Of a DNA stretch of 64,000 bases, positions 39,298 to 55,381 are shown one piece after another. Under the pieces are notes generated by a model. It saw nothing but the letters and a program-made list of their open reading frames with translations, did not search any database and was not told where the DNA came from. The translations under genes were made by a program, and so were the position numbers. Location of the stretch: NCBI RefSeq assembly GCF_003046175.1, contig NZ_PZZM01000001.1, positions 4,729,001-4,793,000 of the forward strand. The letters run 5' to 3'. The number at the start of each line of letters is the position of its first letter. The stretch's first letter is position 1. The stretch comes from Bosea sp. 124 (GTDB taxonomy: Bacteria; Pseudomonadota; Alphaproteobacteria; Rhizobiales; Beijerinckiaceae).

Positions 39298-40719
39298 ATG
39301 GACAACCGAAACGATCTCTGGCGCCACGTCGATGCGAACAAGGAGCGGCTGATCGCGCTCAGCGACCGGGTCTGGGGCATGCCCGAGGTCTGCTATACCG
39401 AAGCCCGCTCCTGCGCCGAGCACGTCGCCGAGCTGGAGCATCAGGGCTTCCGCATCAGCAAGAATATCGCCGATATCCCGACCGCCGTGATCGGCGAGGC
39501 TGGTGAAGGTGGCCCGGTGATCGCGTTCATGGGCGAATACGACGCCCTGCCCGGCCTGTCGCAGGAGGCCGGCGTCGCCAGCCACAAGCCGGTCGAGGAT
39601 GGCGGTCATGGCCATGGCTGCGGCCACAACCTGCTCGGCTCGGCCGCGCTGCTGGCCGCGGTCGCGATGAAGGACTGGCTCGCGGAGAACAAGCTGCCCG
39701 GCCGCGTCCGCTATTATGGCTGCCCGGCCGAGGAAGGCGGCGCGGCGAAGGCCTTCATGGTCCGCGCCGGCGCCTTCGACGATGTCGATGCCGCGATCTC
39801 CTGGCATCCGTCGAGCTTCTGGGAGGTGGCCCCGCCGCTGGCCCTCGCCAACACCCGCGCCGATTTCGTCTTCACCGGCCGCACGGCGCATGCCGCGGCC
39901 GCGCCGCATCTCGGCCGCAGCGCGCTCGATGCCGTCGAGCTGATGAATGTCGGCGTCAACTACATGCGCGAGCACATGCCCAGCGATGCGCGCGTGCATT
40001 ACGCAGTGCTCGACACCGGCGGCATCGCGCCGAACGTCGTGCAGGCCCATGCCCGCGTGCGCTACTCGATCCGGGCGCGCGACCTGCGCGGCATGCTCGA
40101 GCTCGTCCAGCGCGTGAAGAAGATCGCCGAAGGCGCAGCCTTGATGACTGAAACCAAGATGGAGATGCGCATCGTCAGCGCGGTCTCGGACCTGCTCGGC
40201 AACACGCCGCTGGAGCAAGCCATGCACACCGTCATGGAAGAGCTCGGGCCGCCGCATTTCGACGATGCCGACCGCGCCTTTGCGCAGGAGATTCGCAAGA
40301 CGCTGCAGCCACAGGAGATCGCCTCGATCTGGCGCACGATCGGGATGGAGGACACCGGCGCGCCGCTGGCCGATTTCCTCGTGCCGCTCGATGCCAAGCG
40401 CAACCCGGCGATCGGCTCGACCGATATCGGCGATGTGAGCTGGGCCGTCCCGACCGTGCAGGCGCACGCGCCGACGGTCGCCATCGGCACGCCCTTCCAC
40501 ACCTGGCAGGTGGTGTCCCAAGGCAAGCAGCCGGCGGCGCACAAGGCGATGATCCATGTCGCCAAGGCGATGGTGGCGACGGGGGCGGCCGTCCTGCTCG
40601 ATCCCGCCCTGATGGCGGCGGCCAAGGCCGACCACAAGAAAAAACTCGGCGCGGAGGGCTACACCTCGCCGCTGCCACCCGAGGTCAAGCCGCCGCTGAC
40701 GATGTCGCTTGGGGGGTGA
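39298..40719 (+). CDS. M20-family amidohydrolase, AbgB-like
   Basis: A 473-residue zinc amidohydrolase/peptidase close to p-aminobenzoyl-glutamate hydrolase subunit B (AbgB). Metal-site segments are MGEYDALPGLSQ, GGHGHGCGHNLLG and CPAEEGGAAKAFM. The dimerisation (lid) domain follows from about residue 185 (ADFVFTGRTAHAAAAPHLGRSALDA). Family members hydrolyse amide bonds of acylated amino acids. A ribosome site AAGGCAGGA precedes the ATG at 39298. It borders the enamidase operon convergently and could act on an amide intermediate or on an N-acyl substrate of the same pathway. That link is inference. Confidence 0.88.
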   Translation: MDNRNDLWRHVDANKERLIALSDRVWGMPEVCYTEARSCAEHVAELEHQGFRISKNIADIPTAVIGEAGEGGPVIAFMGEYDALPGLSQEAGVASHKPVEDGGHGHGCGHNLLGSAALLAAVAMKDWLAENKLPGRVRYYGCPAEEGGAAKAFMVRAGAFDDVDAAISWHPSSFWEVAPPLALANTRADFVFTGRTAHAAAAPHLGRSALDAVELMNVGVNYMREHMPSDARVHYAVLDTGGIAPNVVQAHARVRYSIRARDLRGMLELVQRVKKIAEGAALMTETKMEMRIVSAVSDLLGNTPLEQAMHTVMEELGPPHFDDADRAFAQEIRKTLQPQEIASIWRTIGMEDTGAPLADFLVPLDAKRNPAIGSTDIGDVSWAVPTVQAHAPTVAIGTPFHTWQVVSQGKQPAAHKAMIHVAKAMVATGAAVLLDPALMAAAKADHKKKLGAEGYTSPLPPEVKPPLTMSLGG

Positions 40720-40735
40720 TCCACAGCCCGGGGCT

Positions 40736-40828
40736 CGTCATGGTCGGGCTTGTCCCGACCATCCACGCCTGCGCTGGTCGAGGTCGGTGTTCAAGTCGTG
40801 GATGCTCGCCACAAGGGCGAGCATGACG
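40736..40828. repeat. Double-hairpin palindromic repeat between convergent genes
   Basis: Two mirror-related arms. The left arm (40736-40767) contains TGGTCGGG-CTTG-TCCCGACCA and ends CATCCACG. The right arm (about 40796-40828) starts CGTGGATG and contains TGCTCGCC-ACAA-GGGCGAGCA. CGTCATG and CATGACG are the outer ends. The layout, with two stems inside one large dyad, is that of mobile palindromic elements in Hyphomicrobiales genomes. It fills the gap between the M20 and PF06684 genes and may double as a terminator. Confidence 0.75.
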
Positions 40829-40835
40829 GTGGAGC

Positions 40836-41420
40836 CTACCGCAGCCCGTCCTCGCCCTTGATCTGGTCCTTCGTCAGCCCGCCGATGCGCGGCAGGGGGC
40901 GGCCTGAATCGGTGACGGCGATCGCGACCAGGATTTCGCCGGCGCGCGGCGCGTCGGTGACCCGGACCTCGACGGCATCGAAATGCGAGCGCACGAAGGC
41001 TGCGTCCTTGTGGCCGAGCGGCACGTCGATCGGGGTGCCGAGCCCGCCGCGCTTCTTGGCCGAGGGGATCAGCGCCGGGCCCTTGCCGAGCGCGGCGCGA
41101 ACCGGCGTCCCCAGCTTCGGGTGCAGGATCGCGGCGGCATGTTCGAGTTCGCCGCCCTCTCCGACGATCGCCGCCTTGCCGAAGCTCTCGGCCTGATGGG
41201 GCTCGATGCCGAGCGCCGCTAGGCAGCGCCTGGTCAGGAGGTCGCCGAGTTCGACGCCGATCTCGGTCAGCTCCGACAGGTCTTCCTGATAGCGCCCGGC
41301 AAAGGGGTTGGCGATCACGGCCACCGCCACGGCGCGGCGCGTCGGCGGCGCCACCGCCCTGCCGGCCTCGACCAGGGTTTCATCGACTTGCGTCAGGATC
41401 TTGCGGATATTCGCGGGCAT
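40836..41420 (-). CDS. Amino acid synthesis family protein (PF06684), copy A
   Basis: A 194-residue protein of the PF06684 (former DUF1185) family, whose biochemical function is not established. Family-like parts are VAVIANPFAGRYQEDLSELTEIG, FGKAAIVGEGGELEHAAAILHPK and LGTPIDVPLGHKDAAFVRSHFDAVEV. It is clearly paralogous to the next gene upstream (copy B); many of these motifs recur there. It lies 32 bp downstream of copy B and is the third gene of the ena operon. A heteromer of the two copies is possible. Confidence 0.85.
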   Translation of the reverse strand: MPANIRKILTQVDETLVEAGRAVAPPTRRAVAVAVIANPFAGRYQEDLSELTEIGVELGDLLTRRCLAALGIEPHQAESFGKAAIVGEGGELEHAAAILHPKLGTPVRAALGKGPALIPSAKKRGGLGTPIDVPLGHKDAAFVRSHFDAVEVRVTDAPRAGEILVAIAVTDSGRPLPRIGGLTKDQIKGEDGLR

Positions 41421-41452
41421 CGGTCGTCCTCGTTTCGCAGTCTGCAGGCGTA

Positions 41453-42040
41453 TCAGCGCTGGCCGTCCCAGACGCTGATCTGGTCGGCGCGCAGGCCGCC
41501 GACGCGCTCATGGATGCGCGCGCCCGTGGTCATCACCAGGATGAGGACCATCTCGTCGGCCTGGGGCGAGCCCGGCACGCCGATCTCGACGGCTCCGAAA
41601 TGGCTGCGCACATAGCAGGCGTTGATATGGGTGACGGGGATGTCGATGCGGGCGCCGGGGCTCGCCACCTTCTTGGTCGAGGGCACGATCGCCTTGGCGT
41701 TGCCGAGGATCTCGCGCATCGCATAGCCGCCCGGCACATGCCAGAGCGCACCATGCTCCAGCTCGCCGGCCGAGCCGATGACAGCGCCCTTGCCATAGCC
41801 CTCGACCGTCGCGGGATCGCCGCCCAGTGCGTTCAGGCAGCGCGTCGCCATCTCCAGCCCCGCCGGCTTGAGCGCCTCCATCATCGGCATGATGTCGGGC
41901 TCGTAGCGGCCGGCATAGGGGTTGGTCAGCACGGCGCAGACCGATGCGATGCGCTCGGTGCGGCCGGGCAAGGGGCCGAACTCGTGGAAGATTTCCTCCA
42001 CAGACGTCTGGACGCGGCGGATTTCGATCAGCTCGGTCAT
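41453..42040 (-). CDS. Amino acid synthesis family protein (PF06684), copy B
   Basis: A 195-residue paralogue of the gene at 40836. Shared motifs are AVLTNPYAGRYEPDI, GYGKGAVIGSAGELEHGALWH, STKKVASPGARIDIPVTHINACYVRSHFGAVEI and the C-terminal GGLRADQISVWDGQR. No catalytic residue is known for the family. It lies 13 bp after the enamidase gene, so it is translated from the same message and should act in the same pathway. A role in handling the ring-opened acid or aldehyde is a reasonable but untested idea. Confidence 0.86.
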   Translation of the reverse strand: MTELIEIRRVQTSVEEIFHEFGPLPGRTERIASVCAVLTNPYAGRYEPDIMPMMEALKPAGLEMATRCLNALGGDPATVEGYGKGAVIGSAGELEHGALWHVPGGYAMREILGNAKAIVPSTKKVASPGARIDIPVTHINACYVRSHFGAVEIGVPGSPQADEMVLILVMTTGARIHERVGGLRADQISVWDGQR

Positions 42041-42053
42041 GGCTTGCCTCCTG

Positions 42054-43244
42054 TCACAGCAGAACGGGCGCGGTATGGGACGGCGGCGTCGAGCGCGAGC
42101 GCCCCGTCCTGACCAGCCCGTCGATCACGACCATCCCGATGCCAGGGATGTCGCCGAGCGAGACCGCCTCCAGCAGGTCCTTGCCGGAGGAATGCTGCGG
42201 CTTGTCGAGAAAGACGAAGTCGGCCGGATAGCCCTCCGCGATCAGGCCGGCATCGAGCGAGCGCCGGCGCGCGACATTGCCGGTGGCGAGGCAGAAGGCC
42301 TGCTCGGCCGGCAGGCCGCCGAGGCTTGCCAGCAGCGTGATCATCCGCAGCACGCCATTGGGCTGGACGCCGGAGCCGGCGGGCGCATCGGTGCCGATCA
42401 CCACGTCAGCGAGGCGGCCCGCCTCCAGCGCAGCCTCCAGCGCCACCAGCGCCGAGCGTTCATTGCCGTTGTGCACGACTTCGAGCGCGCCCTTGGCCTG
42501 CTGGCAGAGGATGCGGATATCGGCATGGGCGATCGAGGTCGGTCCGCCGTTGATGTGGCTGACGACGTCGGGCTGGGCTTCCAGCACATCATCCTTGTTG
42601 ACGAAATGCGAGCCCGCGATCGAGGGACCGCCCGTGTGCATGATCGTCTCCAGGCCGATCTCGCGGCACCAGCCGGTGACGCGCTTCGCATCGGCGCCCT
42701 TGGCGACGGTACCGAGCCCGATCTCGCCGATATGGCGGATGCCGAGCGCCTTCAGCTCCTCGAAGACCTCGCGGCCGAAATCAAGTTCGGCCACCGGCGC
42801 GCCGGCCAGGACCTTGGCGCCGGCCGGGCGGAAATTCTGGAAGCAGCGCTGCGCCGTCACGGCCAGGGCCTTGACGCCGATCGCGTCCTTGGGCCGGCCC
42901 GGCAGATGCACCTCGCCGGCGGAGACCAGCGTGGTGACGCCGCCATTCACGCCCATCTCGATCCAGCCGAGCTGGTTTTGGCGCGGCGTCCAGTCGCCGA
43001 AGACCGGGTGGCAATGGGAGTCAATCAGGCCGGGCGACAGGGGCGAGCCCTTTGCGTCGATCGTCGTGTCGGCGCCGGAGAGATCGAGATCGGCGGCCCG
43101 GCCGATGGCGGTGATGCGGCCATCGATGGCGACGATCGCATCGGCGTCGAGGATCGGCCTCGCCAGATCGCCCGAGAGCAGCAGCCCGATATTGCGGACC
43201 ACCAGCTTGCCCTTGGCAGCTCCCACAGCGACGTCGTGAGCCAT
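42054..43244 (-). CDS. ena: Enamidase-like amidohydrolase (1,4,5,6-tetrahydro-6-oxonicotinate ring opening)
   Basis: A 396-residue amidohydrolase. From memory of the Eubacterium barkeri enamidase, these stretches correspond closely: IGLLLSGDLARPILDADAIV, DSHCHPVFGDWTPRQ (metal His77, His79), GGVTTLVSAGEVHLPGRPKD, GEIGLGTVAKG, METIMHTGGPSIAGS-type MHTGG, PDVVSHINGGPTSIAHAD, GTDAPAGSGVQPNG and GDIPGIGMVVIDG. The known enzyme opens tetrahydro-6-oxonicotinate to 2-formylglutarate and ammonium. The ATG at 43244 has GGAGAACC upstream. First gene of a three-gene minus-strand operon, divergent from marR. I did not run an alignment, so the exact substrate stays provisional. Confidence 0.82.
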   Translation of the reverse strand: MAHDVAVGAAKGKLVVRNIGLLLSGDLARPILDADAIVAIDGRITAIGRAADLDLSGADTTIDAKGSPLSPGLIDSHCHPVFGDWTPRQNQLGWIEMGVNGGVTTLVSAGEVHLPGRPKDAIGVKALAVTAQRCFQNFRPAGAKVLAGAPVAELDFGREVFEELKALGIRHIGEIGLGTVAKGADAKRVTGWCREIGLETIMHTGGPSIAGSHFVNKDDVLEAQPDVVSHINGGPTSIAHADIRILCQQAKGALEVVHNGNERSALVALEAALEAGRLADVVIGTDAPAGSGVQPNGVLRMITLLASLGGLPAEQAFCLATGNVARRRSLDAGLIAEGYPADFVFLDKPQHSSGKDLLEAVSLGDIPGIGMVVIDGLVRTGRSRSTPPSHTAPVLL

Positions 43245-43298
43245 CTGGTTCTCCGTATCGAAGCAGCTGCCGGTCCCGCGCGATGGGACAAGCGGCGA

Positions 43299-43319
43299 TT
43301 GCATGTGTAATAACAATCA
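43299..43319. promoter_or_regulatory. Candidate MarR operator O1 between ena and marR
   Basis: The site TTGCATGTGTAATAACAA (43299-43316) plus TCA matches operator O2 at 43958 in 16 of its 21 bases, including TAACAAT. It lies 55 bp upstream of the ena ATG and 89 bp upstream of the marR ATG, in the divergent promoter region. Surrounding DNA is much more GC-rich. Confidence 0.65.
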
Positions 43320-43407
43320 TGGACAGCGCCGTGGCGGCTGGCAAGAGGCAGAGTCCGGCCTCTGCCCCGTCCTGCGTACCGGTGGCCGAGGAGGCGGTGG
43401 CAAGACG

Positions 43408-43923
43408 ATGACGAGCAGCGAGACCAGCTCGACCGACGCCGCGAGCGAGCCGGCGAGCGATGCCGTGCCGCGCCAGCGCAAGGCGGCCCTTGCGCCCGCC
43501 GCCGCCGCGCCGGGCTATGTCCTCGACGAGCAGGTCGGCTTCCTGATGCGCCGGGCCCAGCAGCGCCATATCGCCATCTTCCAGCGCATCATGGGCGATG
43601 ACGGCCCGACCCCGACGCAGTTCGCGGCGATGTCGAAATTGAGCGAAGGCGCAGAAATTTCGCAAAACCAGCTCGGCCGCATGACCGCGATGGACCCGGC
43701 CACGATCAAGGGCGTCATCGCCCGGCTGGAGGAGCGCGGGCTGGTCGAGCGCCGGCCCGACCCCGACGACCAGCGCCGCGTGCGCGTCCGCCTGACGCCC
43801 CGGGGGCTGGAGGCGATCCCGGGTCTGATCGAGAAGGCGCGCGCGATCACGGCGGCGACCCTCTCGCCCCTGTCGCGGGAAGAGGCGGAGCGGCTGCTCG
43901 GCCTGCTCGCGCGTCTGGATTGA
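43408..43923 (+). CDS. MarR-family regulator of catabolic cluster 2
   Basis: A 171-residue MarR repressor. Residues 1-40 form a low-complexity Ser/Ala/Pro tail. The dimer and winged-helix part has GFLMRRAQQRHIAIFQRIMG, ISQNQLGRMTAMDPATIKGVIARLEERGLVERRPDPDDQRRVRVRLT (recognition helix and wing). MarR proteins often sense aromatic acids, which fits the adjacent N-heterocycle genes. It stands between the ena operon and the hydroxylase operon, with a near-identical palindromic site on each side. The ATG at 43408 has only a distant GGAGG-like site. Confidence 0.9.
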   Translation: MTSSETSSTDAASEPASDAVPRQRKAALAPAAAAPGYVLDEQVGFLMRRAQQRHIAIFQRIMGDDGPTPTQFAAMSKLSEGAEISQNQLGRMTAMDPATIKGVIARLEERGLVERRPDPDDQRRVRVRLTPRGLEAIPGLIEKARAITAATLSPLSREEAERLLGLLARLD

Positions 43924-43957
43924 GCACGGGCTGCCTGCAAAATCCGCTTGCGCCACC

Positions 43958-44020: not shown

Positions 44021-44905
44021 ATGACGCGCTACCTTCGACCCCAGACGCTGGACGAGGCGCTCGCGCTGCGGGCGGGGACGGTCGGCGCCGCGCCGCTGAC
44101 GATGCTGGCCGGTGGCACCGATCTCTATCCGGTGCGCACGCATCGCACCGCCTGGTTCGAACCTTATAGCCGCGACATTCTCGATCTCAGCGCCATCGCG
44201 GAGCTCGGCGGCATCGAGCATGACGCCGGGGGCACGCGCATCGGCGCGACTGCGACGTGGAGCGCCGTCGCCAGCGCCGCATTGCCGCCCGTCTTCGACG
44301 TGCTCAAACAGGCAAGCCGGCAGGTCGGCGGCGTCCAGATCCAGAATCGCGGCACGGTCGGTGGCAATCTCTGCAACGCCTCCCCTGCCGCCGACGGTGT
44401 GCCGCCCTTGCTGGCGCTCGATGCCGAGGTGGAACTGGCGAGCCTGCGCGGCCGCCGGCGCCTCCCCCTCGCCGCCTTCGTGCTCGGCAATCGCAGCACC
44501 GCGCTGGCGGCCGACGAGATCCTGGTCGCGCTGCATCTGCCACCGCAACCGGCGCAGGCGCGCTCAAGCTTCCTCAAGCTCGGCGCGCGCGCCTATCTGG
44601 TCATTTCGATCGCGTCGGTCGCGGCCGTAATCGCGACCGACGCGACGGGGCGCATCGCCTCGGCCAGGGTCGTGGTCGGAGCCTGTTCGGCTGCGCCGCA
44701 ACGTCTTGCCACCCTGGCGGCTCGGCTGATCGGGCAGAACGCCGCGCCGGCTCTGGCGGAGACGGTCGGCGCCGCCGATCTCGCTGCGCTCTCGCCCATC
44801 GACGATGTTCGCGCCAGCGCCGCCTATCGCCGCGATGCCGCGCTCGTTCTGGTGCGCCGGACGCTGGCGGGGCTGCTCTCGTCGCCGCTGGAGGTCGCCG
44901 CGTGA
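44021..44905 (+). CDS. Molybdenum hydroxylase, FAD-binding subunit (cluster 2)
   Basis: A 294-residue PCMH-type FAD subunit, NdhF/XdhB-like. It has LTMLAGGTDLYPVRTHR and GVQIQNRGTVGGNLCNASPAADGVPPLLAL (FAD pyrophosphate loops), then a CO-dehydrogenase flavoprotein C-terminal domain (FLKLGARAYLVISIASVAAVI). By context it accepts electrons during hydroxylation of an N-heteroaromatic acid, such as nicotinate to 6-hydroxynicotinate. Its stop codon overlaps the GTG of the next gene. First gene of a four-gene operon behind operator O2. Confidence 0.92.
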   Translation: MTRYLRPQTLDEALALRAGTVGAAPLTMLAGGTDLYPVRTHRTAWFEPYSRDILDLSAIAELGGIEHDAGGTRIGATATWSAVASAALPPVFDVLKQASRQVGGVQIQNRGTVGGNLCNASPAADGVPPLLALDAEVELASLRGRRRLPLAAFVLGNRSTALAADEILVALHLPPQPAQARSSFLKLGARAYLVISIASVAAVIATDATGRIASARVVVGACSAAPQRLATLAARLIGQNAAPALAETVGAADLAALSPIDDVRASAAYRRDAALVLVRRTLAGLLSSPLEVAA

Positions 44906-47733
44906 ACGTTCATGACCGCTCCGCCCTGCCCGCCGTCGCGCCGCAAGAGAACGCCGTCGCCTTCCGGCTCAACGGCCGCGAGGTCGTGCTGCAGGAGGCT
45001 TCCGATGCCCGGCTGAGCGAGGCGCTACGAACAGGCCTTGGCGCCACCGGAACCAAGGTCGGCTGCGATGCCGGCGATTGCGGCGCCTGCACCGTGCTGA
45101 TCGATGAGGCGCAGGCCTGCGCCTGCCTCGTGCCGGTCGGGCAGGTCGCGGGTTGTGCGGTGGTGACCGTCGAGGGTTTGGCGGAGAATGCGCTGGGCGC
45201 GGCGCTTCAGCGCGCCTTCCATGCCCATGGCGCGGCGCAGTGCGGCATCTGCACGCCGGGCATGCTGATGGCCGGCTACGACCTGTTGAAGCGCAATCCG
45301 CGGCCGGACGAAGGCGAGACGCTGGATGCGCTTGGCGGCGTTCTCTGCCGCTGCACCGGCTATCTCAAGATCGTCGAGGCGGTGCGCGACGCGCATCGGT
45401 TCGTCGATGGCGAGGCATCGGAGCCACGACACAACCTCTCCCCCATCTCGGGCTCGCCGCCACCGGCGGGAAGGGCATGCGCTTCCATCGGCACCCGCAT
45501 CGCCCGCCTCGATGGCGAGCCTAAGGTTGCAGGGACCGAGATCTACGGCAGCGATGCCGCTCCCGAGGATGCGCTCTGGCTGCGGGCACTGCGGAGCCCG
45601 CATCCGCGCGCGCGCTTCACGCTGGGCGATCTCGATGCCTTCGTCGCGGCCCGGCCGGGGCTGGTCCGCATCTTCACGGCGAAGGACGTGCCTGGCGAAA
45701 ACTCCTTCGGCATCTACCCGCATCTCAAGGACCAGCCGGTCTTCTCGACCGGAGAGACGCGCTATCGCGGCGAATGCGTGCTCGCCATCGTCGGCGAAAA
45801 GGCAGCGGTCGAGGCCGTGCGCATGGACGAGTTCCCGATTTCCTGGGAGCCCCTGCCTCCGATGATCGGCAGCAAGGCGGCGCTGGCCGAGACTGCCTTC
45901 ACGCTGCACGACTTCGTACCCGACAACGTGCTGACGCGCGGGCGCGTCGAGCGCGGCGATGTCGAGGCGGGCTTCGCCGCAGCGGCGCATGTCGCCAGCG
46001 GCGCCTTCGAGACAGGCTTCGTCGAGCATGCCTATATCGAGCCGGAGGCCGGCTATGCGAAGCGCGTGGGCGAGACGATCGAGGTCTTCGCCTGCACGCA
46101 GGCGCCCTATATGGACCGCGACGAGGTCGCCCGCGTGATCGGCCTGCCGCTGGAGAGCGTCCGCATCCTGCCTTCCGCTTGCGGCGGCGGGTTCGGCGGC
46201 AAGCTCGACGTTTCGCTGCAGCCGATGCTGGCGGTCGCGGCCTGGGTGCTCGACCGGCCGGTGCGCTGCGTCTTCGGGCGGATCGAGTCGATGATCTCCT
46301 CGACCAAACGCCACCCCTCCTCGATCGAGGCGAAGGCGGCGTGCGACGCTGCCGGGCGCCTCGTCGCCTATGCGATGGATGGCGATTTCGATACCGGCGC
46401 CTATTCTTCCTGGGGGCCGACCGTCGCCGGCCGCGTGCCGGTGCATGCGACCGGGCCCTACAAGGTGCCCCATGTCCGCAACCGCTCGCGCGCGGTCTAC
46501 ACCAACGGCCCGCCCTCGGGCGCCTTCCGCGGCTTTGGCGTGCCGCAGGCCGCGATCGCGCAGGAGACCCTGTTCGACGATCTCGCCGCCGCGGCCGGGA
46601 TCGATCGCCTGGAGTTCCGCCTGATAAACGCCATCCGTGCCGGCGATACGACGCCCTGCGGGCAGGTTCTCGAAGCCAGCGCCGGGCTCGCCGAATGCCT
46701 GGAGGAGCTCAGGCCGCATTGGGAGAGGTTGCTGGCGGATGCCGCTGCCTTCAATGCAAGCGAGGGCCGGACACGGCGCGGCGTCGGTGTCGGCTGCATG
46801 TGGTACGGCATCGGCAATACCGGCATGTCCAACCCCTCGACCATGCGGGTGACGCTGTCGCAGGATGGCCGGCTGACGTTCTGGAACGGCGCCGTCGACA
46901 TCGGCCAGGGTTCGACCACCGTGCTGACCCAGATCGCGGCGGATGCGCTCGGGCTGCCGGTCGAGCGCTTCGATCTGGTCGTCGGCGACACCTTCCGCAC
47001 GTTTGATGCCGGCAAGACCTCGGCCTCGCGCCAGACCTTCGTCTCCGGCAAGGCCTCGGAGAAGGCGGCGGCTGCGTTGCGCGCCGAGATCCTGCGCCTC
47101 ACCAATGCCGGACCCGCCGCCCGCCTCTCACTCGACGGCACGACCGTGCGGGTCGAGGAGAATGGCGTCGTCGCGCTGATCGATCTCGCCGCCCTCCCCG
47201 CCAAGGCGAACGGGACGGTGCTCGAAGGCATCGGCAGCTTCGACCCGCCGACCGTGCCGCTCGACGAGAACGGCCAGGGCGTGCCCTATGCGACCTACGG
47301 CTTCGCGGCGCAGATTGCCTCGCTCGACGTCGATCTCGACCTCGGCACGATCAAGCTCAACCGCATCGTCGCGGCCCATGATGTCGGCCGCGCCATCAAT
47401 CCGATGCTGGTCGAGGGCCAGATCCATGGCGGTATCGCCCAGGGCATCGGGCTGGCCTTGCTTGAGGAATACCTGCCGGGCCGGACCGAGAATTTGCACG
47501 ATTACCTGATCCCGACGGCGGGCGACGTGCCGCCGATCGACATCATCCTGGTCGAGGATCCCGAACCGCTGGGCCCCTCCGGCGCCAAGGGTATCGGCGA
47601 ACCGGCACTGGTGCCGACCGCACCCGCCATCCTCGGCGCGATCCGGCATGCGACCGGGGTCACGCCGCGCCAGGTCCCGGTGCTGCCGCACCGGCTCTGG
47701 GAGTTGCTGCGCCAGAAGGAGGGCCGTCCGTGA
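44902..47733 (+). CDS. Fused [2Fe-2S]/molybdopterin subunit of molybdenum hydroxylase (cluster 2)
   Basis: A 943-residue fusion. Residues ~18-165 form a complete two-cluster FeS domain: Cys55, 60, 63 and 73 in GCDAGDCGACTVLIDEAQAC, then CGICTPGML and LCRCTGYLKIVEA. After a linker (HNLSPISGSPPPAGRA) the catalytic part begins near residue 195. It shows GGGFGGKLDVS, SGAFRGFGVPQ, DIGQGSTTVLTQIA and GAKGIGEPALVPTAPAI with the catalytic-type Glu. Domain order equals E. coli XdhD rather than the usual separate subunits. GTGA overlaps couple it to both neighbours. Substrate probably nicotinate or an analogue, inferred from the reductase and enamidase genes. Confidence 0.9.
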   Translation: MNVHDRSALPAVAPQENAVAFRLNGREVVLQEASDARLSEALRTGLGATGTKVGCDAGDCGACTVLIDEAQACACLVPVGQVAGCAVVTVEGLAENALGAALQRAFHAHGAAQCGICTPGMLMAGYDLLKRNPRPDEGETLDALGGVLCRCTGYLKIVEAVRDAHRFVDGEASEPRHNLSPISGSPPPAGRACASIGTRIARLDGEPKVAGTEIYGSDAAPEDALWLRALRSPHPRARFTLGDLDAFVAARPGLVRIFTAKDVPGENSFGIYPHLKDQPVFSTGETRYRGECVLAIVGEKAAVEAVRMDEFPISWEPLPPMIGSKAALAETAFTLHDFVPDNVLTRGRVERGDVEAGFAAAAHVASGAFETGFVEHAYIEPEAGYAKRVGETIEVFACTQAPYMDRDEVARVIGLPLESVRILPSACGGGFGGKLDVSLQPMLAVAAWVLDRPVRCVFGRIESMISSTKRHPSSIEAKAACDAAGRLVAYAMDGDFDTGAYSSWGPTVAGRVPVHATGPYKVPHVRNRSRAVYTNGPPSGAFRGFGVPQAAIAQETLFDDLAAAAGIDRLEFRLINAIRAGDTTPCGQVLEASAGLAECLEELRPHWERLLADAAAFNASEGRTRRGVGVGCMWYGIGNTGMSNPSTMRVTLSQDGRLTFWNGAVDIGQGSTTVLTQIAADALGLPVERFDLVVGDTFRTFDAGKTSASRQTFVSGKASEKAAAALRAEILRLTNAGPAARLSLDGTTVRVEENGVVALIDLAALPAKANGTVLEGIGSFDPPTVPLDENGQGVPYATYGFAAQIASLDVDLDLGTIKLNRIVAAHDVGRAINPMLVEGQIHGGIAQGIGLALLEEYLPGRTENLHDYLIPTAGDVPPIDIILVEDPEPLGPSGAKGIGEPALVPTAPAILGAIRHATGVTPRQVPVLPHRLWELLRQKEGRP

Positions 47734-49262
47734 ACGAGCTCAATCCCATCCCGACGCAGGATTCAGTTCTGGCCGAGCGCTCGCGCAAATTCGGCGTGGC
47801 CGAGGGCGAGGACGGCATCCTGCGTTGCGACGCCTGCCCGGTGCTCTGCCGGATCAGGCCCGGACGCTCCGGCGCGTGCTCGCGCTATGCCAACGAGAAC
47901 GGCCTTCTGGTGCGCACCGACCCGGTGGTGCTGCTGGCGGAGGCCGTCGCCGAAGGGCAGCATGTCGTGCCGTTCGCCGAGCCCGCCGAGGACTGGGACG
48001 GGTCGATCCTGCCCACGAGCCGCGTCTTCGTCACCGGCATCGGCTCGGGCACGACCTATCCGGACTACAAGCCGGCGCCCTTCATCGTGTCCTCGCAGCA
48101 TGAGGGCGTCGATACGGTCACCGTCGTGACGGAGGGGATCTTCTCCTATTGCGGCGTCAAGGTGAAGATCGACACCGATCGGCATCTCGGCCCGGAGACT
48201 GCGGCCGTGCGGGCGAATGGCGAGCAGGTCGGCCATGTCACCACGGCCGAGTACGGCTCGCAGATGCTTTCCATCGGCGGCGTGCACCATCTCACCGGCG
48301 GGTCGAAGAAGGAGGGCAACGCCACCTGCGAGACGATGCTGAAGCTCGGCAATGGCGAGGCGGTGGAACTGACCATCGACGGCGGCCACGGCGTCGTCGT
48401 TCAGGCCGGGCAGGCGCCGGTCGTCGATGGCCGGCCCGAGACGCGGATGCGGGTCGGCTGCGGCTCGGCCACGATCGGCATCTTCGCGAAGCAGTGGCAG
48501 GGCCATGTCGACGAGGTCATCGTCGTCGACGACCATATCACCGGCGTCCTGACCGAGCATCAGGCCGGTCGGGTGCTCGACATGCGCCCCGCCGGCATCC
48601 GGGTGCGCGGCCGTAAATCGACACCCGGGCGCTATTTCCAGGTCGCGGCCCCGGGCCTCGGCTGGGGCGGCACCGACATCACCGAGCCGCTCTCGATCAT
48701 CCAGAAGATCGATCCGGCCCTGGCCTGGCCGGGCATGCGGCTCCTGATGACATCGACGACCGGCGAGGACTCGCTCTATTGCGTGCTCGACGAGAACCTC
48801 GTTCCGGTCGAGGCCGAGATGCCCGCCCCGGTGCGGCAGGTGGTCGAGCGCATCGGCGAGAACTGTGAGCCCTCGCTGTGCAGCGTGATGTTCGTGGCGG
48901 GTGCGGGCGGGTCCCTGCGCGCCGGTGTCACCGAGAACCCGATCCTGCTGACGCGCTCGGTGCAATCCGGCTCGACGCGGGTGACGATGGGCGGCGCGCC
49001 GGTCTTCGTCTGGCCTGGCGGCGGCATCACGGTGATGGTCGACGTGCTGCGCATGCCGAAGAACGCCTTCGGCTATGTCCCGACGCCGGCGATCGTCGCG
49101 CCGATCGAGTTCACCCTGTCGCGCCAGCTCTATCTGGCTTCCGGCGGCCATGCCGAGGAGATCGTACCCGTCGAGGAGATCCTTCGCGCCCATGGCGGAC
49201 AGGCCCGGATCGAGGGCGGAGCGGCCGAGAACCCCTGGCCTCTGCGGCAGAATGTGGATTAG
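47730..49262 (+). CDS. 6-hydroxynicotinate reductase-like iron-sulfur protein
   Basis: A 510-residue protein that I assign to the 6-hydroxynicotinate reductase family described from Eubacterium barkeri. That enzyme reduces 6-hydroxynicotinate to 1,4,5,6-tetrahydro-6-oxonicotinate with reduced ferredoxin. The N-terminus has a cluster-binding CDACPVLCRIRPGRSGAC (Cys33, 36, 40, 50). Further Gly-rich and Cys-containing segments are TGIGSGTTYPDYKPAPF, EGIFSYCGVKVKID and MRVGCGSATIGIF. It starts with GTG at 47730 overlapping the upstream stop. It makes the exact substrate for the enamidase encoded divergently. The family call rests on recollection and context; no ferredoxin gene is in the window. 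Confidence 0.75.
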   Translation: MNELNPIPTQDSVLAERSRKFGVAEGEDGILRCDACPVLCRIRPGRSGACSRYANENGLLVRTDPVVLLAEAVAEGQHVVPFAEPAEDWDGSILPTSRVFVTGIGSGTTYPDYKPAPFIVSSQHEGVDTVTVVTEGIFSYCGVKVKIDTDRHLGPETAAVRANGEQVGHVTTAEYGSQMLSIGGVHHLTGGSKKEGNATCETMLKLGNGEAVELTIDGGHGVVVQAGQAPVVDGRPETRMRVGCGSATIGIFAKQWQGHVDEVIVVDDHITGVLTEHQAGRVLDMRPAGIRVRGRKSTPGRYFQVAAPGLGWGGTDITEPLSIIQKIDPALAWPGMRLLMTSTTGEDSLYCVLDENLVPVEAEMPAPVRQVVERIGENCEPSLCSVMFVAGAGGSLRAGVTENPILLTRSVQSGSTRVTMGGAPVFVWPGGGITVMVDVLRMPKNAFGYVPTPAIVAPIEFTLSRQLYLASGGHAEEIVPVEEILRAHGGQARIEGGAAENPWPLRQNVD

Positions 49263-49274
49263 TGACTGGCTCCG

Positions 49275-49386
49275 GCCCTCATCCTGAGGAGCCGCAACGC
49301 GGCGTCTCGAAGGATGCTTCAGGAGGCTCCGGTATCCGCTGGAGCATCCTTCGAGACGCGTCCGTGGCGCTCCTCAGGATGAGGGC
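49275..49386. repeat. Palindromic repeat between the reductase and UPF0280 genes
   Basis: A 112-bp dyad with two nested perfect stems. The outer arms are GCCCTCATCCTGAGGAGC (49275-49292) and GCTCCTCAGGATGAGGGC (49369-49386), 18 bp. The inner arms are GCGTCTCGAAGGATGC (49302-49317) and GCATCCTTCGAGACGC (49344-49359), 16 bp. It fills nearly all of the 142-bp gap inside an otherwise overlapping operon. Confidence 0.9.
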
Positions 49387-49404
49387 TGTGGGGAGCCAAA
49401 ACCT

Positions 49405-50325
49405 GTGAAGTCCCACCGCGTCGCCCGTTTGTCCGGCAACCGCCTGCATCTGCAGGAGGGGCCGAGCGATCTCGTCATCGCGGCGTTCGGCGAGCTTGCG
49501 GTCATCGAGCGCGCCTATGCCGCCGCCGAGGACGCTTTCGACGGGCTACTCACCGAACTCGCGGGCGAAATGCGGACACTGCGCCAGCCGCTGACGGCTC
49601 AGCCTCCAGCCCTGAAAGGCGCGACGGCGCAGCGCATGGCGCGTGCCTGCTGGGCCTTCCGCACGCAGTACATCACGCCGATGGCGGCCGTCGCGGGGGC
49701 TGTCGCAGACACCATCCTGAGCGCGATGACGGCAGCGGCACCGCAGCTCGAGCGCGCCTATGTCAACAATGGCGGGGACATCGCGGTGCTGGTCACGCCG
49801 GGGCATCCGCTTGATATCGGCGTTGTCCCGTCGCTTGCGCGGGCGCGGCCGGAGGGCTTCATCAGGCTTCATGCTGCGCAATATGCTGCGCAGCATTTTC
49901 GCGGCATCGCGACCAGCGGCTGGCGTGGCCGCTCCTTTTCGCGCGGCGTCGCAGACGCGGTAACGGTGCTGGCGCGCAGTGCGGCCGAGGCCGATGCTGC
50001 CGCGACGATTATTGCAAATGCGACTGATGTGCAGGAATCGGCGATCCTTCGCAGGCCGGCGCGCGAACTCGACCCCGACAGCGATCTCGGCGATCTGCCG
50101 GTCACGGTGGATGTCGGGCCCCTGCCCCCGGACGCGATCGCCAAAGCGCTGGCCGCCGGGGAGCGAACAGCCGAGGCACTGCTGCGCGAGGGCCTGATCG
50201 AGGGAGCGCTGCTGGCTCTCGCGGATGAGTGGCGCAGCGTCGGCGGGGTTTCGTTGGGCTTAAGCCCCCCCACCGCCTCGCCGTCATCCCGGGCAAGCAA
50301 AGCGCAGAGCCGGGATCCATCGTAA
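49405..50325 (+). CDS. UPF0280 family, ApbE-like flavin-transferase fold protein
   Basis: A 306-residue member of UPF0280 (COG2122), distantly related to the FMN transferase ApbE. The recognisable core is YITPMAAVAGAVADTIL, AYVNNGGDIAVLV, GIATSGWRGRSFSRGVADAVTVLA and NATDVQESAI. Start is GTG at 49405 after GGGGAG. Its place directly after the reductase suggests covalent flavinylation or another cofactor service for that protein or the hydroxylase. This is inference, since UPF0280 activity is not established. The last ~15 residues (SPSSRASKAQSRDPS) are encoded by an inserted palindromic repeat, so the native C-terminus has probably been replaced. Confidence 0.83.
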   Translation: MKSHRVARLSGNRLHLQEGPSDLVIAAFGELAVIERAYAAAEDAFDGLLTELAGEMRTLRQPLTAQPPALKGATAQRMARACWAFRTQYITPMAAVAGAVADTILSAMTAAAPQLERAYVNNGGDIAVLVTPGHPLDIGVVPSLARARPEGFIRLHAAQYAAQHFRGIATSGWRGRSFSRGVADAVTVLARSAAEADAAATIIANATDVQESAILRRPARELDPDSDLGDLPVTVDVGPLPPDAIAKALAAGERTAEALLREGLIEGALLALADEWRSVGGVSLGLSPPTASPSSRASKAQSRDPS

Positions 50326-50390: not shown

Positions 50391-50410
50391 GGCTAGCCGG
50401 GATCGTCTCG

Positions 50411-51121
50411 TCAAACCGACAGGTACTGCGTCCTGACCGCCTCGTTGGCCTTGAGCTCGTCCATCGTGCCGGTGAAGCGGATGATGCCCTTCTCGATGAT
50501 CGCCGCGCGATCGGCGACATTGCCGGCAAAATGCAGGTTCTGCTCCGAGATCAACACGGTCAGCCCCTCGCTCTTCAGCGCCAGGATGGTCTTCGCCATC
50601 TCCTCGACGATGACCGGCGCCAGCCCCTCCGAAGGCTCGTCGAGCAGCACGAGCTTTGGATTGCCCATCAGCGTGCGCGCGATGGTCAGCATCTGCTGCT
50701 CGCCGCCCGACATGGCGCCGCCCGGCCTGTCGCGCATCCGGCCGAGATTGGAAAAGAGTGCAAACAGCCGCTCCGGCGTCCAGTGCGGCGCGTCACTGCG
50801 GGCCGGGCGCTGCGCCACCGAGAGGTTCTCCATGACGCTGAGCTCGGAGAAGACGCGCCGGTCCTCGGGCACATAGCCGATGCCCATCCGCGCGATCTCG
50901 AAGGGCTCGCGGCCATCGACCCGGCGCCCCTCGAAGCTGACGGAGCCTCCGGCGGGTGGCACGAGGCCCATGACGGCCTTCATCGTCGTCGATTTGCCGG
51001 CGCCGTTGCGGCCCATCAGCGCCAGCACCTCGCCGCGATTCATCGCGAAGGTGACGCCCTGCAGGATATGGGCGCGGCCGTAATAAGCGTCGAGCGCGGA
51101 AATCTCGAGCATGGTGGTCAT
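50411..51121 (-). CDS. livF: ABC transporter ATPase, LivF type (cluster 2)
   Basis: A 236-residue ATPase of the second branched-chain-amino-acid-type importer. It has Walker A GRNGAGKSTTMKAVMG, signature MSGGEQQMLTIARTL, Walker B VLLDEPSEGLAPV and H-loop VLISEQNLHF. It lies 207 bp downstream of livG, with a palindromic repeat in the gap. It is the last gene of the transporter set. Confidence 0.93.
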   Translation of the reverse strand: MTTMLEISALDAYYGRAHILQGVTFAMNRGEVLALMGRNGAGKSTTMKAVMGLVPPAGGSVSFEGRRVDGREPFEIARMGIGYVPEDRRVFSELSVMENLSVAQRPARSDAPHWTPERLFALFSNLGRMRDRPGGAMSGGEQQMLTIARTLMGNPKLVLLDEPSEGLAPVIVEEMAKTILALKSEGLTVLISEQNLHFAGNVADRAAIIEKGIIRFTGTMDELKANEAVRTQYLSV

Positions 51122-51159
51122 GCCGTGTACTCACGGAAGAGCGCGACGCGTCCCCGTCC

Positions 51160-51278
51160 CCCCGCTTGCGGTGGGGAAGGGTTAGGGATGGGGGGCCGGA
51201 AAGCGGGGCGAACGTGCCGGCCGCGGACGTGCCCAGCGGCGCTGCCCCCCACCCTGGCCCTCCCCACCGCAAGCGGGG
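51160..51278. repeat. Palindromic repeat between livG and livF of cluster 2
   Basis: Perfect 18-bp arms CCCCGCTTGCGGTGGGGA (51160-51177) and TCCCCACCGCAAGCGGGG (51261-51278) flank about 83 bp. That spacer includes GGGATGGGGGG, with CCCCCCACCC opposite. It accounts for most of the 207-bp intergenic gap. The arm sequence differs from the other repeats here, so it is a separate family. Confidence 0.88.
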
Positions 51279-51328
51279 AGAGGGAAGCGCCTGCGCAAGC
51301 CGCGTCGGAGTTCGATATCACGCGCACC

Positions 51329-52099
51329 TCAATGCCCTCCCGAGGTCGCGCCGGAGCCGAGATAGACGGCGCGGACATTGGGGTCCCGGCGCACCTCCTC
51401 GGCCGTGCCATGCGCGATCAGGCGGCCGCGGTCGAGCACGATGACGCTGTCGGAGTGGGTGAAGACGACATCCATGTCATGCTCGGTGAAGAGCACGGCG
51501 ATGCCTTTCGCGGCGGCGATCCCGGCGGTCAGCGCCATCAGGTCGATGCGCTCGCGCGGGGCCATGCCGGCGGTGGGCTCGTCCATGAGCAGGAGCCGCG
51601 GCTGGTTGGCGAGCGCGACCGCAAGTTCGACGCGCTTGAGGTCGCCATAAGCGAGCACGCCGCAGGCGCGCTCGGCCTGCCCGGCCATGCCGACCTGCGC
51701 GAGCAGTGCCTCGGCCGCGTCGCGGTGGCGGTCGCGGGCGCGTCCGAAGGGGCTCCAGATTTCGCCGGCATGCGAGATCAGCGCCATCTGGACGTTCTCG
51801 CGCACGGTCATCGAGGTGAAAGTCGCAGTGATCTGGAAGGTGCGGCCGACGCCCATGCGCCAGACGACACGCGGCTTCAGGCCGGTGATCGGGCGGCCTG
51901 CCAGCAGCACCTGCCCGCCATCGGGGCGGAGCTGGCCGTTGAGCATGTTGAAGCACGTCGTCTTGCCGGCGCCATTGGGCCCGATCAACGCCAACATCGT
52001 GCCGGGCAGGACCGAGAAGGACACGCCATCGACGGCGCGCACGCCGCCGAAGGATTTGGCGAGGTCGCGGACGAGGAGGACCGGCTCGACCGCGCTCAT
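51329..52099 (-). CDS. livG: ABC transporter ATPase, LivG type (cluster 2)
   Basis: A 256-residue ATPase with Walker A GPNGAGKTTCFNMLNG, degenerate signature LAYGDLKRVELAVAL, Walker B LLMDEPTAGMAPRE and H-loop LFTEHDMDVVF. The ATG at 52097-52099 overlaps the stop codon of the fused permease gene by ATGA. It pairs with LivF to drive the importer. Confidence 0.93.
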   Translation of the reverse strand: MSAVEPVLLVRDLAKSFGGVRAVDGVSFSVLPGTMLALIGPNGAGKTTCFNMLNGQLRPDGGQVLLAGRPITGLKPRVVWRMGVGRTFQITATFTSMTVRENVQMALISHAGEIWSPFGRARDRHRDAAEALLAQVGMAGQAERACGVLAYGDLKRVELAVALANQPRLLLMDEPTAGMAPRERIDLMALTAGIAAAKGIAVLFTEHDMDVVFTHSDSVIVLDRGRLIAHGTAEEVRRDPNVRAVYLGSGATSGGH

Positions 52100-53985
52100 C
52101 GGCCAGCCTCCGCCAGTGCCAGCGCAGAGGGCGGCGCCTCCTTGCGCCAGCGTTCGCGGAGCGCCAGAACCGCTCCCACCAATCCGCGCGGGAAGAGCAC
52201 GACGAGGAGCACGATCGAGAGGCCGAGCACGAAGCGCCAGTACATCGTCGCCTTCATCAACTGCTCGGAGAGGCCGGCATAGGCGAAGGCGCCGACGATC
52301 GGCCCCGTGACGGTCTGGACGCCGCCGAGCAGCACCATCAGCAGCGCATCGACCGAGCGCGGGATCGCCATGTAGGTCGGAAAGACGGAGCCCTTGAAGA
52401 AGGCGAAGAGCCCGCCCGCGATGCCGGCGCAGAAAGCCGCGACAGCGAAGGCGGCCCACTGGATGCGGACGACATCGAGCCCGATCGCCTCTGCCCGCAG
52501 CGCATTGTCGCGCGCGGCGCGCAGGCCGTAGCCGAAGGGTGAAAAGATCGTCAGCCGCAGCGCCAGGATCGCGGCCGCGCAGATGACGAGGGTGAGGTAG
52601 TAGTAGACCGTCTTGGAGGCCGCCCAGGCCGAGGGCCAGACGCCGAGCATGCCATTGTCGCCGCCGGTCAGGTCGACCGACTGGAAGGCGGTCGCCCAAG
52701 CGATCTGCGCGAAGGCCAGCGTCAGCATGGCGAGATAGACGCCCGACAGCCTCACGCAGAACCACCCGAAGACGACGCCGGCGATGCCCGCCAGGAAGGG
52801 CGCGAGCAGCAGCGCCGGCTCCATTGGCGCGCCCAGCCATTTCACCGCGAGCGCAGCGCCATAGGCCCCGAGCCCGAAATAGGCGGCGTGGCCGAAGGAG
52901 GCCATGCCGCCCGGCCCCATCATGAAATGCAGGGAGGCGGCGAAGAGCGCGAAGATGACGAGCTCGGTCAGGGTCAGCAGGATGTGGTCGGGCGTCACCA
53001 GCGGGGCCAGCGCGAGGATCACGAGCGCGATCAGCCCGGCAAGCTTCGTCGGCCCATCGGCGGGCAGCAGCAACGGCTCGGCCGGGCCATGGGCGCGCGC
53101 ATGGCCGACGGGCGCCTTGCCCATCAGGCCATAGGGCTTGACCACGAGCACCACCGCCATGACCAGGAAGACGAGGACGAGCGTGATCTTGGGAAAAATC
53201 AGGATGCCGAAGGCGTGCAGGATTCCGATCAGCACAGCCGCGAGATAGGCGCCCGTGACGCTGCCGAGCCCGCCGACGACCACGACCACGAACGCCTCGG
53301 AGATCATGGACAGGTCCATGTGCAGGGTCACGGCCTCGCGCGGTAGTTGCAGCGCGCCACCCAAGCCCGCCAGCATCGAGCCGAAGGCGAAGACGGAGGT
53401 GAAGAGCAGGCGCTGGTTGACCCCGAGCGCGCCGACCATTTCGCGATCCTGCGTCGCAGCCCGCACCAGCGTGCCCCAGCGCGTCTTCTGGAAAAGCAGC
53501 CAGAGAACCAGCAGGACGAGCGGCCCGACCCCGATCAGGAACAGCTCGTAGGTCGGAAAACGGTTGCCGAAGATGACGACGAAGCTCTTGAAGCCGGGCG
53601 CGCGCGGCCCGAGCTTGTCCTCCGCCCCCCAGACACCGAGCGCGACGTCCTGCAGCATCAGCACGACGCCGAAGGTGGCGAGCAACTGAAACAGCTCCGG
53701 AGCCTGATAGATCCGGCGCAGGATCAGCACTTCGATGACCACGCCGATGAGCCCGGTCAGGACAGCCGCGAGCAGCACGCCGCCCCAGAAGCCGAGCGCC
53801 TCCGCCGGCCCGAAGCGCCCGACCAGCGTCCAGGCCAGATAGGCGCCCAGCATGTAGAGCGAGCCATGCGCGAAGTTCACGATGCGCGTGACGCCGAAGA
53901 TGATCGACAGCCCCGACGCGACGAGGAACAGCGAGGAGGCCGAGGCCAGGCCGTTCAGCGTCTGGGTGAGGATGAGGTCGATCAT
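52096..53985 (-). CDS. Fused LivH-LivM ABC transporter permease (cluster 2)
   Basis: A 629-residue protein joining the two permeases that are separate in cluster 1. Residues ~1-295 are LivH-like (SGLSIIFGVTRIVNFAHGSLYMLGAY, ISEAFVVVVVGGLGSVTGAYLAAVLIG). After a hydrophilic linker (GKAPVGHARAHGPAEPLLLPADGP) the LivM-like half follows, with FMMGPGGMASFGHAAYFGLGAYG, GVYLAMLTLAFAQIAWA and LLGGVQTVTGPIVGAFAYA. About 18 helices are visible. One chain therefore supplies both membrane halves. The reading frame is continuous and I see no sign of an assembly artefact. Confidence 0.92.
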   Translation of the reverse strand: MIDLILTQTLNGLASASSLFLVASGLSIIFGVTRIVNFAHGSLYMLGAYLAWTLVGRFGPAEALGFWGGVLLAAVLTGLIGVVIEVLILRRIYQAPELFQLLATFGVVLMLQDVALGVWGAEDKLGPRAPGFKSFVVIFGNRFPTYELFLIGVGPLVLLVLWLLFQKTRWGTLVRAATQDREMVGALGVNQRLLFTSVFAFGSMLAGLGGALQLPREAVTLHMDLSMISEAFVVVVVGGLGSVTGAYLAAVLIGILHAFGILIFPKITLVLVFLVMAVVLVVKPYGLMGKAPVGHARAHGPAEPLLLPADGPTKLAGLIALVILALAPLVTPDHILLTLTELVIFALFAASLHFMMGPGGMASFGHAAYFGLGAYGAALAVKWLGAPMEPALLLAPFLAGIAGVVFGWFCVRLSGVYLAMLTLAFAQIAWATAFQSVDLTGGDNGMLGVWPSAWAASKTVYYYLTLVICAAAILALRLTIFSPFGYGLRAARDNALRAEAIGLDVVRIQWAAFAVAAFCAGIAGGLFAFFKGSVFPTYMAIPRSVDALLMVLLGGVQTVTGPIVGAFAYAGLSEQLMKATMYWRFVLGLSIVLLVVLFPRGLVGAVLALRERWRKEAPPSALALAEAGR

Positions 53986-54023
53986 GCGGTCATAAGCCTC
54001 GTCAGCGTCGGGCGCGCCATCTC

Positions 54024-54157
54024 GTCATTCCGGGGCGGCCGGCAGGCCGAACCCGGAACCCACGATCAGGCGAAACCGTCTCGAACAACGCTGGGACACT
54101 GCCGGAGCGGCAAGTCGTGGGTTCCGGGTTCATCGCTGTGCGCTGCCCCGGAATGAC
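54024..54157. repeat. Palindromic repeat between the binding-protein and permease genes
   Basis: Outer arms GTCATTCCGGGGC (54024-54036) and GCCCCGGAATGAC (54145-54157) are perfect. Inner arms GAACCCGGAACCCACGA (54049-54065) and TCGTGGGTTCCGGGTTC (54115-54131) are a perfect 17 bp. It fills most of the 178-bp gap between the substrate-binding gene and the permease. It may lower downstream expression, as repeats do in other high-binding-protein operons. Confidence 0.9.
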
Positions 54158-54163
54158 AGCGTC

Positions 54164-55381
54164 TCACCCCGCCGGGCGGAGCGTCTTCACCTCGGCGTCG
54201 CTCGGCAGGTACTTCGCGCCGTCGCGATAGCTCCAGTCGACCATGACGCCCTTGCCGTCCTTGAGCGCGGTCTTGCCGACGAAGGCGCCGAGCGTCGACT
54301 GGTGGTCGATTGCGCGATACTCGGCCGTGCCGAAGGCGGAGGGGAACTTCAGGCCCTTCAGTGCATCGACCAGCTTCTCCGTATCGGTCGATCCGGCCTT
54401 GGCGAGAGCGGCGGCGATCGAGTTCATCGTATCGTAGCCGACGATCGAGCCGAGGCGGGGATAGTCTCCGAACTTGGCCTTGTAGGCCTCGTAGAACTTG
54501 GTGTGCTCGGGGGTCTTCAGGTCGGCATGGGGATAGCCGGTGACGATCCAGCCGACCGGGGCCTCGGCGCCGAGCGGATCGAGATATTCCGGCTCGCCGG
54601 TGAGCATCGAGACCACGGTCCTGCCCTCGAAGAGCCCGCGCGTATTGCCCTGCCGGACGAAGTTCGTCAGGTCGCCGCCGAAGGTGACGTTGAAGATGGC
54701 GTCGGGCTTCGAGGCTTCCAGCGCCTGCACGGTCGCGCCGGCATCGATGCGGCCGAGCGCAGGGAACTGCTCGGCGACGAATTCGACATCGGGCTTGGCC
54801 TTCTTGAGCAGGTCCTTGAACCACTTCACGGCAGACTGGCCGTATTCGTAGTTCGGTGCCACGATCGCCCATTTCTTGGCGGGAAGCTTGGCGGCCTCCT
54901 CGACCAGCATCGCGGCCTGCATGTAGGTCGAGGGCCTCAGGCGGAAGGTGTAGCGGTTGCCCTTGGCCCATACGACCGCGTCCGAGAGCGGCTCGGAAGC
55001 GACATAGAGCTTCTTGTTCTGGTTGGCGAAGTCGGCGATGGCGAGGCCGACATTGGAGAGGAAGCCGCCCGAGAGCAGGTCGACCTTCTCCGCGTTGATC
55101 AGGTCGCCGGCATGACGCACGGCATCCTCGGGCTTGCCGGCATCGTCGCGGAAGATCGTCTCGATCTTGCGGCCGAGCACGCCGCCGCCCGCATTGATCT
55201 GTTCCAGCGCCAGTTCCCAGCCCTGGCGATAGGGCTTCAGGAAGGCCGGCTGCGCCGTGTAGCTGTTGATCTCGCCGACCTTGATGGGTCCGGCGCCTTG
55301 CGCATGCACCAGGGACGGGGCTGCGAGGATGGTGGCTCCGGCGGAGGCGCCGGCCAGAAAACTCCGACGGTCGATCGTCAT
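54164..55381 (-). CDS. ABC transporter substrate-binding protein (cluster 2)
   Basis: A 405-residue LivJ-family (PF13458) binding protein. A Tat-like signal opens it (MTIDRRSFLAGASAGATILAAPSLVHAQ). The mature domain starts IKVGEINSYTAQPAFLKPYRQG, with NAGGGVLGRKIETIFRDDAGKPEDA following. The ligand cannot be read from sequence; gene context points to an N-heteroaromatic acid. I start at 55381 (GGGGAAC upstream); the open frame reaches 55531 but the extra 50 residues precede the signal peptide. First gene of the transporter operon. Confidence 0.92.
   Translation of the reverse strand: MTIDRRSFLAGASAGATILAAPSLVHAQGAGPIKVGEINSYTAQPAFLKPYRQGWELALEQINAGGGVLGRKIETIFRDDAGKPEDAVRHAGDLINAEKVDLLSGGFLSNVGLAIADFANQNKKLYVASEPLSDAVVWAKGNRYTFRLRPSTYMQAAMLVEEAAKLPAKKWAIVAPNYEYGQSAVKWFKDLLKKAKPDVEFVAEQFPALGRIDAGATVQALEASKPDAIFNVTFGGDLTNFVRQGNTRGLFEGRTVVSMLTGEPEYLDPLGAEAPVGWIVTGYPHADLKTPEHTKFYEAYKAKFGDYPRLGSIVGYDTMNSIAAALAKAGSTDTEKLVDALKGLKFPSAFGTAEYRAIDHQSTLGAFVGKTALKDGKGVMVDWSYRDGAKYLPSDAEVKTLRPAG

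Follow-up and report, generated by a model that had tools for sequence, protein, structure and literature searches.

Candidate genes for nicotinate import and reductive breakdown in Bosea sp. 124, and the UPF0280, PF06684 and HyuA/HyuB proteins that accompany 6-hydroxynicotinate reductase

The window analysed here is a stretch of 64,000 nucleotides from the genome of Bosea sp. 124 (a single contig of 5.47 Mb; NZ_PZZM01000001.1, positions 4,729,001 to 4,793,000), and our subject is a gene cluster within it that very probably takes up nicotinate and carries out the upper steps of its reductive breakdown. On the plus strand lie a molybdenum hydroxylase (44021-47733), made up of a flavin adenine dinucleotide (FAD) subunit (44021-44905; PF00941, E 1.2e-39, and PF03450) and a fused 2Fe-2S and molybdopterin subunit of nicotinate dehydrogenase type (44902-47733); a 6-hydroxynicotinate reductase, Hnr (47730-49262), so named from its relatives; and a UPF0280 protein (49405-50325), the probable partner or maturase of Hnr. 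The GTG start of the fused subunit overlaps the stop of the preceding FAD-subunit gene, and 4-base overlaps link these two genes and hnr. On the minus strand, an enamidase, Ena (42054-43244), and two PF06684 proteins, AAs2 (41453-42040) and AAs1 (40836-41420; 242 bits against PF06684), form one tight run with gaps of 13 and 32 bases, oriented opposite to the hydroxylase-hnr-UPF0280 run and divergent from a MarR-family regulator (43303-43923, plus strand; PF01047, E 1.8e-13). An ATP-binding cassette (ABC) importer of branched-chain amino-acid type spans 50411-55381, also on the minus strand, with a LivF-type ATPase (50411-51121), a LivG-type ATPase (51329-52099, start ATG at 52099), a fused LivH-LivM-type permease (52096-53985) and a periplasmic substrate-binding protein, presumably for nicotinate (54164-55381; PF13458, E 4.6e-72). 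Every frame of the cluster has a single stop, at its end. All the genes named in an earlier sequence-only reading of this DNA are present, at or near the positions it gave.

That reading had placed a molybdenum hydroxylase in a nicotinate pathway, and the fused subunit bears this out: Eubacterium barkeri nicotinate dehydrogenase (NDH) is the best solved relative of both its molybdenum halves, 3hrd_A for residues 195-605 (L-like; E 1.7e-75, next best 3e-45) and 3hrd_B for residues 625-935 (M-like; E 4.2e-64, next best 3.4e-36), which places the enzyme in the NDH type. The enamidase assignment is likewise upheld by a full-length match. Ena aligns from residue 13 to residue 393 of its 396 with the E. 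barkeri enamidase 2vun (E 2.2e-100, against 3e-6 for the second-best match), and its H77, H79, E174, H203, H230 and D286 fall on H67, H69, E164, H193, H220 and D276 of 2vun at a constant offset of 10, as counted on the printed alignment; we take these six conserved residues to be metal ligands. Hnr itself matched no Pfam or NCBIfam family, and many of its relatives are named 6-hydroxynicotinate reductase at source. Cysteines 33, 36, 40, 50, 141, 244 and 379 are invariant in two alignments of relatives. A loop with T108 and T109 is likewise invariant. The protein is 88-90% identical to Bosea proteins and has a patchy distribution, being found in two of 12 genomes from the family to which the window belongs and in 26 of 72,556 plasmid records. 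Stretches in other proteins, some 370-430 residues long and perhaps radical SAM proteins, also match its N-terminal cysteine motif (residues 27-63; 47808-47918). A relative of Hnr in strain SG-6C is 42% identical to E. barkeri Hnr (PMC3511419, in part).

We surveyed the neighbourhoods of 85 hnr loci, namely the 80 nearest of 588 Hnr relatives in genome contigs and five of 26 plasmid hits, and scored presence and absence in 289 alphaproteobacterial genomes. A neighbourhood survey had been suggested as a check by the sequence-only reading, and the grouping is indeed found repeatedly: Hnr, UPF0280 and a molybdenum hydroxylase recur together at loci of many genera, so that their association is not a matter of chance. 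The M20 hydrolase (39298-40719, plus strand), which had been counted with the cluster, neighbours hnr in only three of the 85 loci and is not a conserved part of it. Alphaproteobacteria-like hnr also occurs at L087, L130 and L131, in records named Mesoflavibacter, Solirubrobacterales and Chloroflexi, either as mis-binned contigs or through transfer. Elsewhere in the window, at 22072-30575, another molybdenum hydroxylase is accompanied by an ABC importer of amino-acid type; the NCBIfam models nearest to this hydroxylase, glyceraldehyde dehydrogenase subunits, are matched below cut-off.

The loci differ in their predicted ring opener. Across the 85, an enamidase is present in 23, HyuA and/or HyuB in 36, neither in 26 (many of them truncated) and both in none; the corresponding counts among the 47 loci with full flanks (at least 9 kb on either side) are 16, 25, six and zero. 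The 44 genomes with Hnr divide in the same manner into 18 with an enamidase (at least 54%), 25 with HyuA (at least 55%), none with both and one, only 70% complete, with neither, and among the 245 genomes without Hnr an enamidase was found in one and HyuA in two. Fisher tests on such counts take no account of relatedness, and we give them no weight. The HyuA search, in which four candidates were scored per genome at E 1e-120, returned HyuA at 55% or more in 27 genomes, 25 of them with Hnr; G127 was excluded (a contig-edge partial, 66% over 467 residues, without Hnr). Where HyuA and Hnr occur together, HyuA lies at most 19 kb from hnr on the same contig in 17 genomes and 54-77 kb away in three, adjoins a UPF0280 fragment on another contig in two, and is on other contigs in three; G064 and G104 additionally encode a remote relative of the enamidase (37 and 40%). 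On an Hnr tree built by a quick method, with SH-aLRT support only and one long branch (L134), the ring-opener state changes 11 times, at least six of these changes being forced by well-supported branches, and the sister loci L096 and L113, both carrying the hydroxylase, differ in ring opener. Together these patterns point to Ena and HyuA as two interchangeable ring openers that have been swapped repeatedly along the Hnr tree. Since the same hydroxylase family is common to both kinds of locus (54-64% in 29 tallied loci of the Hyu kind and 50-91% in 18 with Ena), the substrate is likely to be the same. HyuA and HyuB score 488 and 323 bits against the NCBIfam caprolactamase alpha and beta equivalogs, where the cut-off is 1000, making these the nearest family and not one to which they belong. 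We think it probable that the pair is an ATP-driven lactamase acting on 1,4,5,6-tetrahydro-6-oxonicotinate (THON), doing the work of the enamidase in over half of the alphaproteobacterial genomes with Hnr; the exclusive use of one or the other suggests that a metal hydrolase gave way to an ATP-dependent lactamase on several occasions. A methylisocitrate lyase and a protein with a PrpF domain, which recall late steps in E. barkeri, lie close to the Sagittula hnr locus (L134, 2769-4794).

The two PF06684 proteins, whose membership follows from Pfam scores above cut-off and from the fold, fall into separate clades divided by one branch with a support of 100 (FastTree). AAs1 goes with the enamidase: all 16 full-flank Ena loci have it, as do four of 25 Hyu loci and none of the six others. 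AAs2 is present in eight of 16 and 18 of 25, respectively, and is a candidate for the reaction that follows opening of the ring. The family has solved structures and no settled function, and the locus supplies it with a defined metabolic context; one structure is a chorismate-mutase-like hexamer for which a role in amino-acid metabolism was suggested (PMC2954203, in part). Our best guess is that the pair handles the missing 2-formylglutarate step, either as a decarboxylation or by dealing with the aldehyde, because the nicotinate and trigonelline routes would both pass through a 2-formyl dicarboxylic acid. It is also possible, at odds clearly below even, that these proteins are not catalytic and instead stabilise an unstable aldehyde or present it to its dehydrogenase, as might be expected from the homologue TgnF, which stimulates the oxidation of succinic semialdehyde by TgnE in trigonelline breakdown; for HcdD of the coumarin pathway no comparable stimulation could be demonstrated (both from PMC7913881, in part). 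Against a purely supporting role, the strictly conserved polar residues K84, E93, E95, H96, R145 and H147 (34 sequences) suggest an active site.

UPF0280 belongs to its family by its score against NF003322 (340 bits, cut-off 290), and in 82 of the 85 loci it is located on the downstream side of hnr at a distance of at most 1.6 kb, sometimes with a MarR gene between. In two of the remaining three the contig ends within 310 bases, and at L130 there are 5.3 kb of following sequence without UPF0280. Hnr and UPF0280 moreover occupy the identical set of 44 of the 289 genomes; left outside it are G059, G181 and G182, which have an N-terminal Hnr stretch only, and G131, which has a weak UPF0280 match. 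Because of this shared distribution and the downstream position, UPF0280 looks like a dedicated partner of Hnr, and a family of unsettled role that has been tied to homocysteine synthesis thereby gains a concrete partner. The gap between the two genes (49263-49404) contains a near-perfect palindrome, the core of which occurs nowhere else in the window and the RNA of which is predicted to fold at -97.1 kcal/mol, compared with -55.7 for shuffled sequences (z -11.3); it may be a damper of UPF0280 expression or an intergenic repeat element.

As to what such a partner might do, maturation of Hnr is the most likely role; that it installs a covalent flavin or other cofactor we suggest tentatively, at odds clearly below even. 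Its conserved blocks, among them GGDIA, ATSG and AD-x-x-AT, presumably resemble the catalytic half of ApbE, and we take UPF0280 to be the same as COG2122. A flavin-transfer role is weakened by the lack of any ApbE Pfam match, up to E 10 for the window protein and up to E 1 for two relatives, and by the ApbE partner motif D-x-x-[ST]-G-A-[ST] (PMC12052999), which is complete in none of the 86 Hnr rows, its core SGAT occurring in two. Other roles are favoured in that MA1715 has been called a sulfur-trafficking protein (PMC12068725, in part). COG2122 is described as a distant ApbE relative without the flavin-binding region, and Desulfovibrio needs both it and DUF39 to make homocysteine (PMC5764234, in part). 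DUF39/HcyBio (PF01837) was considered as a possible relative of Hnr, and a Pfam profile search of three Hnr proteins, up to E 10, listed no match to it. It is rather less likely than not that UPF0280 is instead a catalytic enzyme of the pathway acting, for example, on an intermediate: the gene is always within the pathway neighbourhood and often cotranscribed, but its presence follows that of Hnr, in all 44 Hnr genomes and with Ena or HyuA alike, rather than that of either ring opener, and the Desulfovibrio synthesis that needs COG2122 (PMC5764234, in part) has no such intermediates. Rather doubtful is the combination in which UPF0280, with an ApbE-like catalytic core acting on a target without the ApbE motif, installs a covalent flavin or other cofactor on Hnr and similarly serves DUF39, the PF06684 pair is the 2-formylglutarate decarboxylase and HyuA/HyuB the ATP-driven THON lactamase.

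From the enzyme families, operon layout and co-occurrences read in these sequences, we infer the substrate, the electron path and the roles of UPF0280 and PF06684 as follows, and put the probability of nicotinate import followed by the upper reductive route at about 0.87. Nicotinate would be taken up by the ABC importer and converted to 6-hydroxynicotinate by the molybdenum hydroxylase. Hnr, an Fe-S flavoprotein, would reduce this to THON with electrons that probably pass from NADPH through a ferredoxin-NADP reductase to ferredoxin, both encoded elsewhere, and UPF0280 would serve as its dedicated partner, most likely in its maturation. The enamidase would open the ring of THON and release ammonia to give 2-formylglutarate, which would then lose CO2 and be oxidised to glutarate by enzymes other than those recognised here. 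For dealing with the 2-formyl acid, or with the semialdehyde that it would yield, the strongest candidates are the two PF06684 proteins, whose genes are cotranscribed with ena. The sequence-only reading had raised the prospect of a new electron donor for Hnr. An ordinary one is likely, because 11 of the 85 loci (including four of the five annotated plasmid regions) have a ferredoxin-NADP-reductase-like gene close to hnr and a relative with 52% identity is found 1.39 Mb away in the same genome; a new donor is not supported.

Several observations weigh against this assignment. The whole fused hydroxylase chain retrieves aldehyde oxidoreductases as its top hits in the PDB, the E. barkeri enzyme being divided over several chains, and Hnr is identified through the names of relatives and the published SG-6C figure rather than by direct alignment with E. 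barkeri Hnr, which was not among the 80 nearest of the 588 relatives in genome contigs. The ferredoxin-NADP-reductase-like gene is present neither in the window nor at the three nearest loci (L054-L056), and the distant copy scores 146 bits against a curated NCBIfam cut-off of 390. No dedicated decarboxylase acting after 2-formylglutarate was recognised at the locus, the lower pathway not having been searched in the genome; 2-formylglutarate reductase, 2-methyleneglutarate mutase and the later fermentation enzymes are likewise not among the locus genes, the only part of the genome searched for them. That the cluster degrades some other pyridine carboxylate or N-heteroaromatic acid by homologous reduction and lactam opening is improbable: the importer belongs to a broad amino-acid class that indicates no specificity, and PF06684 proteins occur in other pathways too (PMC7913881, in part), but all three enzymes appear closer to the nicotinate-specific E. 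barkeri enzymes than to other solved hydroxylases, and two related clusters, on plasmids, carry a NicB-type hydroxylase instead, annotated in one of them as nicotinate dehydrogenase.

Such a nicotinate cluster has already been reported in Azorhizobium caulinodans ORS571, Bradyrhizobium japonicum USDA110, Rhodopseudomonas palustris HaA2 and strain SG-6C, the last of which grows on nicotinate and 6-hydroxynicotinate, a capacity that its authors credit to a cluster of this kind, in which they mention two unknown proteins (PMC3511419, in part); the route to THON and 2-formylglutarate has also been described (PMC9304392, in part). The sequence-only reading had stressed an E. barkeri-type route in an apparently aerobic bacterium. 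The candidate enzymes leading from nicotinate through 6-hydroxynicotinate and THON to 2-formylglutarate are present, and among the outcomes named there as refuting the idea, none of those checked occurred (Ena matches over its full length with the ligands kept, and NDH is best for both molybdenum halves). Novelty in an aerobe is not supported, the same cluster and route being published for Azorhizobium and Bradyrhizobiaceae (PMC3511419, in part). The Bosea cluster is a well-formed member of a known pathway, and its interest lies in UPF0280, in the PF06684 proteins and in the replacement by HyuA/HyuB; with it, a pathway of ordinary appearance can be put to the test in an aerobe. With the first three enzymes of nicotinate fermentation in E. 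barkeri it shares the dehydrogenase type, the enamidase and, judging from the names of relatives, the Hnr family, whereas its hydroxylase joins in one chain the 2Fe-2S, L and M parts that are separate chains in E. barkeri, the locus is without a 2-formylglutarate reductase or later fermentation genes, and UPF0280 follows Hnr and a PF06684 pair sits beside ena. The trigonelline (TgnF) and coumarin (HcdD) pathways likewise place PF06684-type proteins beside catabolic enzymes for N- or O-heterocycles, although their substrates differ (PMC7913881, in part). Also close are the caprolactamase-like Hnr loci, such as those of Phreatobacter (L057) and Sagittula (L134), which likewise hold hnr, UPF0280, PF06684 and mostly the same hydroxylase family, but have HyuA/HyuB as candidate ring opener where the Bosea locus has an enamidase.

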